64,000 nt of DNA from Planctomycetota bacterium (GTDB lineage Bacteria > Planctomycetota > UBA1135): the NCBI GenBank assembly GCA_024229395.1, contig JAAESM010000042.1, positions 62,001-126,000 on the forward strand, given 5' to 3'. The notes below the pieces were generated by a model, which saw only the letters and a list, made by a program, of their open reading frames with translations, searched no databases and was not told the origin of the DNA. A program made the position numbers and the translations under genes. Shown piece after piece: positions 62,544 through 63,476 of the stretch (position 1 is the stretch's first letter; each line of letters begins with the position of its first letter).

Positions 62544-63476
62544 ATGAACCGCAAGCCATCCCTACTTGCCATCCTGCTGCTGTGCGCCTGCAGTCCCAGC
62601 GATCCCGCCACCACTGAGACCACCGGTGGCGCTGCTGAGAACCATGCTCCAATCCCTCTGGAGAGCGATAACTTGGCGCACCTACTGGACTTAGGTTCAG
62701 ACCTCTACTCCGGAAGCATGCCTCCAACGGCCGCGTCCTTCGAGGAAATCGCCGCCATGGGAGTGAAGATGGTGGTCAACGTGGATAGTGCCAGCCCTGC
62801 TGTGGAATTGGCAGAGGCCGCTGGAATGACCTATGTGCACATCCCGATCGGCTACGACGGCGTGCCGGAAGAGGCTGCCCTCGCCCTTGAACGGGTTATC
62901 CGCGATGCTGAGGGCCCGATTTACTTCCATTGCCACCATGGCAAGCACCGTGGACCCGCCGCCGCCGCCATCGCCCTGCGAGCAGCCTCTGGTTGCAGCG
63001 CAGAAGCCGCTGCAGAGGTGCTGAGCGCTGCAGGAACCAGTGAGGACTACAAAGGCCTATGGCGCGACGTCGCCGCCTGGCAGCCCGCTGCAGAAGGCGT
63101 GGTGCTGCCCGAACTCGTTTCGGTAGCAAAGGTTGCGGACTTCCCGGCCGGCATGGCCAAGCTCGACCGCGTATGGGATCGCGTCAAGCTGATCCGCAAA
63201 AATAAGTGGCAGATCCCTGCCGATCACCCGGATCTGGCGCTGGGGCAGGAAACCCTGATTCTCACCCAGTTGCTGCGTGAGAGTTCCAGCCTGCTTTCGG
63301 CTGAGCACCAAGAGGATCGCGAGTTCCAGCGTCAGATGGAGGAGTCCACCGAGCTGGCCCACGAGCTCCATCAGGCCGCCCGTCAGGCTGAGTTGGATCT
63401 AGAGCTGCTCGATGAGCGCTACCTGGACCTGGCAGCATCATGCAAAAACTGCCACCGAGACTATCGAAACGATTAG
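62544..63476 (+). CDS. Lipoprotein: Cys-phosphatase-like domain fused to C-terminal cytochrome c'-like haem domain
   Basis: Lipobox LLLCACSP; IYFHCHHGKHRGPAAAAIALRA (HCx5R); terminal AASCKNCHRDYRND. Confidence 0.75.
   Translation: MNRKPSLLAILLLCACSPSDPATTETTGGAAENHAPIPLESDNLAHLLDLGSDLYSGSMPPTAASFEEIAAMGVKMVVNVDSASPAVELAEAAGMTYVHIPIGYDGVPEEAALALERVIRDAEGPIYFHCHHGKHRGPAAAAIALRAASGCSAEAAAEVLSAAGTSEDYKGLWRDVAAWQPAAEGVVLPELVSVAKVADFPAGMAKLDRVWDRVKLIRKNKWQIPADHPDLALGQETLILTQLLRESSSLLSAEHQEDREFQRQMEESTELAHELHQAARQAELDLELLDERYLDLAASCKNCHRDYRND

Follow-up and report, generated by a model that had tools for sequence, protein, structure and literature searches.

The window, a stretch of 64,000 nucleotides from a planctomycete genome, carries a gene for a 310-residue lipoprotein in which a PTP/DSP-fold domain with an HCx5R loop is joined to a class II cytochrome c domain. 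Sequence and structure prediction together establish the two domains, the export, the haem-binding motif, the joint conservation of both halves and the operon association in other lineages. Our best explanation, to which we give a probability of about 0.35, is that the protein is a haem-wired PTP-fold enzyme that works outside the cytoplasm, with phosphorylated solutes as the candidate substrate class. The ligand role of Met204, the catalysis, the substrate class and the electron transfer between haem and Cys130 are what we infer from these data. We found no published description of the fusion in the open-licence literature searched, so within that literature the architecture is real, conserved and undescribed.

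Architecture of the fusion protein

The features of the gene and its product are as follows (all on the forward strand).

62544-63476: whole fusion gene with ATG start, encoding the DSP/PTP-fold and cytochrome c'/c-556-like lipoprotein
62544-62591: signal peptide and lipobox LLCAC, with predicted lipidated Cys16, from the sequence
62679-63089: PTP/DSP-fold domain, approximately residues 46-182 (PF22785; phmmer/hmmsearch to TpbA; AF2 and Foldseek)
62784-62786: Asp81 (V-D-G/S), candidate alternative acid (putative role)
62853-62858: Tyr104 and Asp105, the latter aligning with TpbA Asp105
62928-62951: P-loop H129-C130-H131-H132-G133-K134-H135-R136 (HCHHGKHR, HCx5R), from the 130-member alignment
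63138-63473: class II cytochrome c domain, with helices at residues 199-219, 233-248, 259-279 and 286-307 (PF01322; AF2 of the domain alone; Foldseek)
63153-63155: Met204, probable distal haem ligand
63441-63455: haem-c attachment motif C300-K-N-C303-H304

The protein begins MNRKPSLLAILLLCACSPSD (310 aa) and starts at the same methionine as its homologue L047. Both domains score above the curated Pfam cut-offs, the DSP-PTPase family PF22785 with 30.7 bits against 27 (residues 59-143) and the cytochrome c' family PF01322 with 29.8 bits against 26.5 (residues 255-308). Of the window's 115 open frames with 150 aa or more, the fusion gene alone combines HCx5R with CxxCH. Comparison with an 82%-identical homologue gave a dN/dS of 0.114/0.93, which shows purifying selection on a genuine gene; this ratio, the profile scores and the existence of homologues together rule out chance or an annotation artefact.

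The lipobox fits the PROSITE-type pattern as judged by eye. A stricter scripted rule was passed by 67 of 129 members, a count that is a lower bound since the rule failed to count the window protein itself; some members, such as that of Blastopirellula (L027), have no lipobox but a hydrophobic N-terminus. Both domains are predicted to be extracytoplasmic, as the earlier note on this DNA had proposed from the lipobox; the HCx5R loop and terminal CKNCH that it had pointed out are present as well. Adjacent matches to CcsA and ResB, which are cytochrome c maturation genes, lie on one contig of the same genome and make haem attachment to the fusion protein plausible.

The whole chain was modelled by AF2 with 50 homologues at pLDDT 92.8 and pTM 0.85, the latter suggesting a defined arrangement of both domains. 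TpbA, a dual-specificity phosphatase from the periplasm of Pseudomonas aeruginosa (PA3885), is the nearest solved relative of the PTP domain by sequence and by fold: it is the top Foldseek match (E 3.9e-6, probability 1.00), followed by DUF442 and DUSPs, and in the profile search it reached 7.5e-12 against 1.1e-6 for the DUF442 protein 3gxh. Together with the PF22785 score this bears out the Cys-based phosphatase-like domain suggested earlier. The window protein shares with TpbA the fold, the HCxHGxxR loop, the periplasmic location and the aligned Asp105. In contrast, TpbA has no haem domain, its loop is HCKHGNNR followed by T rather than HCHHGKHR followed by G, and its general acid is not conserved across the fusion family. 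In TpbA, where Asp105 is the proposed general acid, the D105A exchange cuts catalytic efficiency by only 53% (PMC4409338).

The nucleophilic cysteine and the anion-binding arginine of the PTP/DSP superfamily are retained throughout, C130 and R136 both being present in 130 of 130 aligned fusions. The auxiliary residues of the superfamily are not: position 105 is Asp in 75 of 130 members (58%) and K, S, R or N elsewhere, and Arg136 is followed by Gly in 101 members, Ala in 2 and Ser in 27, so that the Ser/Thr expected there is found in 27/130. Asp81 and the loop histidines H132 and H135 are conserved far better than Asp105. Because of the 58% conservation of Asp105 and the usual Gly after Arg136, ordinary phosphatase chemistry is not assured; the family retains the P-loop that binds oxyanions, yet may have little or no phosphatase catalysis of the classical kind. 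A simple TpbA orthologue is ruled out by the same lack of conservation of auxiliary catalytic residues. No second conserved Cys occurs in the PTP domain among the 130 aligned members, which disfavours a disulfide redox switch.

The C-terminal domain modelled alone is a four-helix bundle (pLDDT 94.0), whose best structural match is the cytochrome c' 1cgn with a TM-score of 0.71 and an E-value of only 0.014 (Foldseek); profile searches found cytochrome b562 and cytochrome c' as well. The helical c'/c-556-like domain described in the earlier note is recovered here, also by PF01322. As in other class II cytochromes c (c', c-556), the CxxCH lies on the last helix of the bundle; unlike them, the domain is fused to an enzyme domain. 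Besides CxxCH and the nearly invariant last Arg, Met204 is the only invariant residue of the haem domain. In six-coordinate c-556 a Met is the distal ligand, whereas cytochrome c' is five-coordinate and binds gases. Met204 is therefore probably the distal ligand, as in c-556, an assignment that rests on invariance since Met7 of b562 falls one helical turn away from it in the sequence alignment. The fusion family thus appears to have the c-556 ligand set rather than that of five-coordinate cytochrome c', which favours an electron-transfer haem and disfavours a gas-sensing one.

Distribution and conservation

The fusion forms a conserved family that spans the phylum, and transport and multihaem genes recur in its surroundings. 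Forty-eight of 61 relatives match the window protein, mostly across its full length, and full-length fusions were found again in most related genomes. Across the phylum, 155 of the 395 Planctomycetota genomes sampled, and 110 of the 267 genera, contain a match at E<1e-20. Counted by match extent, about 136 of the 395, approximately one third, have a full-length or nearly full-length fusion, and the remaining matches are DSP-only relatives. Among the named carriers are Blastopirellula marina DSM 3645 and MAGs that bear the label Verrucomicrobia.

The alignment of 130 fusions shows no exchange at P60, P101, Y104, H129, C130, G133, R136, Y169, M204, C300, C303 and H304; D81 and R308 are found in 129 members, and H132 and H135 in 128. 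The alignment leaves out L188, in which the loop is degenerate (TCETGRDR) and the haem motif is kept. PF01322 matches 42 of 50 members at E<=0.01. The joint invariance of C130/R136 and of M204/CxxCH in the 130 fusions speaks for the haem-wired enzyme that we favour.

A possible functional subtype has the loop HC[F/Y]HG (L051, L057, L058, L063, L066, L068, L069, L071-L076 and L081). Where the general acid would stand, its members have K or some residue other than Asp, and many carry an extra Cys in QWCGT. Very long open frames upstream of the unit in the high-GC members L034, L064, L070, L078, L124, L134 and L187 were judged spurious, since those scanned contain no second Pfam domain or show an unfavourable GC3 pattern.

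Genomic context and further fusions

In the window's own family the gene has a syntenic neighbourhood.

55557-60840, forward strand: four consecutive amidohydrolase-like genes
60874-61413, forward strand: peroxiredoxin (PrxQ/BCP, AhpC-TSA)
61416-62444, forward strand: TrpD/glycosyltransferase-3-like gene, upstream and not functionally tied to the fusion
63507-63989, reverse strand: small protein resembling type IV pilins/pseudopilins, its gene converging on the fusion gene

The pilin-like protein has no match in Pfam or NCBIfam. As a functional clue this synteny (amidohydrolases, peroxiredoxin, TrpD-like, pilin-like and topoisomerase genes) is conserved and uninformative. Elsewhere in the window, an open frame with eight CxxCH motifs (17012-18640, forward strand) matches the octahaem family of hydrazine-dehydrogenase/HAO-like proteins (PF13447, 75 bits); its NF052343 score of 76 bits is far under the cut-off of 900.

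In other lineages an ABC set of SBP, fused permease and ATPase adjoins the fusion gene or shares a same-strand run with it (L032, L064, L065, L077, L079, L113 in reversed order, and L202, where the run closes with Porin_O_P). In L162 the SBP directly follows the fusion gene, and in L130 a divergent ABC set lies three genes away. A pentahaem c554-like cytochrome accompanies the set in most of these loci. By chance, 130 loci would be expected to yield approximately 0.4 such cases at a distance of up to 8 kb, a rough estimate that uses genome size and assumes approximately one such SBP per genome; SBPs of this type are present in 235 of 395 Planctomycetota genomes. The same ABC set is preceded in L201 by a DSP-only relative (HCHAGRHR) without haem domain. 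The window genome has the SBP-permease-ATPase set, with a pentahaem c554-like cytochrome and a HEAT protein, on another contig (L200, 2398-7895, G000:C4), and the linkage is therefore lineage-specific. A cytochrome b561 adjoins the fusion gene in L078. Just upstream of the fusion in L077 (9216-13081, reverse strand), an MtrC-like protein with 18 haems and an MtrB/PioB-like porin with CxxCH form a candidate porin-cytochrome conduit.

The SBP belongs to the FutA/FbpA/AfuA/PhnS family and resembles PhnS and AfuA, while its best solved relatives are the Fe(III)-binding FutA/FbpA. In AfuA and P5PA a Gly-Thr contacts phosphate; this pair and AfuA Asp206 were taken as reference residues (PMC8427247, PMC4546632). 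In the alignment the SBP has no FutA Tyr-Tyr and keeps both the Gly-Thr phosphate-contact motif and an equivalent of Asp206; this combination makes an organic ligand with a phosphate group more likely than Fe(III). The SBP also carries several invariant acidic residues, and cation binding by an acidic pocket is possible.

The pentahaem partner, and not the fusion protein, matches NCBIfam NF041198, the UshA-like (seleno)protein PCGU. Judged from what it is called and from where the match lies, PCGU is a UshA-like nucleotidase with a c554-type C-terminal region and hence also combines a phosphohydrolase with a cytochrome; it differs in being a metallophosphatase of unrelated fold and in having a multihaem type of cytochrome.

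Several single open frames extend the DSP-cytochrome unit by a further domain. The unit is joined to a glutathione peroxidase (GPx) in L165 (7433-8917) and L170 (7406-8896), to MsrB in L052 (7980-9290), to a Na+-nucleoside transporter in L190 (6557-8872) and, with the degenerate P-loop, to a Na+/Ca2+ exchanger in L188 (8082-9950). In L028 (4324-6834) it is joined to an alkaline phosphatase, although the match stops at position 318 of 423 and a truncation or MAG chimera is possible. These fusions appear to follow two recurring themes, phosphoester/nucleoside salvage and thiol redox; the alkaline phosphatase and nucleoside transporter, and the GPx and MsrB, link the family to them.

Proposed function and alternative readings

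In the explanation that we prefer, the fusion protein would be an envelope-anchored two-domain enzyme. Cys130, in the oxyanion pocket of the HCx5R loop, would bind and convert an extracytoplasmic solute that carries a phosphate or a similar oxyanion, and the c-556-like haem would connect the PTP domain with the c-type electron chain of the periplasm. The haem would most likely keep the lone Cys130 as a thiolate, or return it to that state, in an oxidising compartment, or else take electrons from the chemistry. The wider role might be salvage or uptake of the solute alongside the AfuA/PhnS-type ABC importer, in several lineages.

Sulfur chemistry would ask less of the active site, since the lost general acid and the missing Ser/Thr after Arg are irrelevant to sulfur transfer. 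Here a DUF442-like transferase would form a persulfide at Cys130, and electrons from the oxidation of thiosulfate, persulfide or sulfite would pass to the haem. The best NCBIfam matches of the fusion are indeed the sulfur transferase TIGR01244 and Blh, in which the DUF442 domain has the PTP fold and proven sulfur-transferase activity (PMC5823870), and DUF442/TIGR01244 domains (Blh N-terminal domain, 3gxh) share with our protein the PTP-like fold and the occurrence in fusions. However, the TIGR01244 score of 27.4 bits is far under the cut-off of 85.85, the profile lies closer to TpbA than to DUF442, the Blh partner is an ETHE1 dioxygenase and not a cytochrome (PMC5823870), and no sulfur-oxidation genes were recognised among the scanned neighbours; we consider this reading unlikely. 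The Fe(III)-binding relatives of the SBP, its invariant acidic residues and the multihaem and porin-cytochrome neighbours would suit iron or metal acquisition, in which Fe(III) bound to phosphate or phytate is reduced or set free by the haem together with its pentahaem partner, the phosphate goes into the PTP pocket and the FutA/FbpA-family system imports the metal. To this we give only a small chance: the SBP has lost the canonical Tyr-Tyr iron ligands and kept the AfuA-like motif, and fusions to a nucleoside transporter, GPx and MsrB make no iron sense.

Control of a TpbA-like periplasmic signalling phosphatase by a cytochrome c' haem that senses NO, CO or redox state and switches the enzyme allosterically would agree with TpbA as the closest solved relative and with cytochrome c' as the best match of the haem domain. 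It is very unlikely, since invariant Met204 suggests a six-coordinate haem, a second conserved Cys is lacking, the TpbA-like Asp105 is found in 58% only and the neighbours are transport and multihaem genes, not signalling genes. Of the redox- or gas-controlled phosphatase put forward in the earlier note the phosphatase fold stands, whereas Met204 speaks against the gas control and the lone Cys against redox control through a disulfide. That lone invariant Cys beside unusual invariant His residues, the GPx and MsrB fusions and the peroxiredoxin syntenic in the window's family could instead point to a thiol peroxidase or oxyanion reductase, in which peroxide or a different oxidant would oxidise Cys130 and the fused haem would reduce it directly. 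A one-electron haem would then need to support two-electron chemistry on a single Cys, and to our knowledge the PTP fold offers no precedent for it; we regard this as quite improbable.

Beyond the phosphorylated-solute enzyme that we favour, a new type of redox enzyme is conceivable but rather doubtful: a PTP-fold Cys reduced or oxidised directly by a tethered c-type haem, with a phosphate-type or peroxide substrate, would serve a widespread multihaem-linked nutrient acquisition in Planctomycetota. Both halves of the protein are familiar folds, and it is their covalent union that is conserved as one unit across the phylum. The family provides a testable case for direct electronic coupling of a haem c to a PTP-type cysteine outside the cytoplasm, and the fusion marks an uncharacterised module of ABC transporter and pentahaem cytochrome in many planctomycetes.
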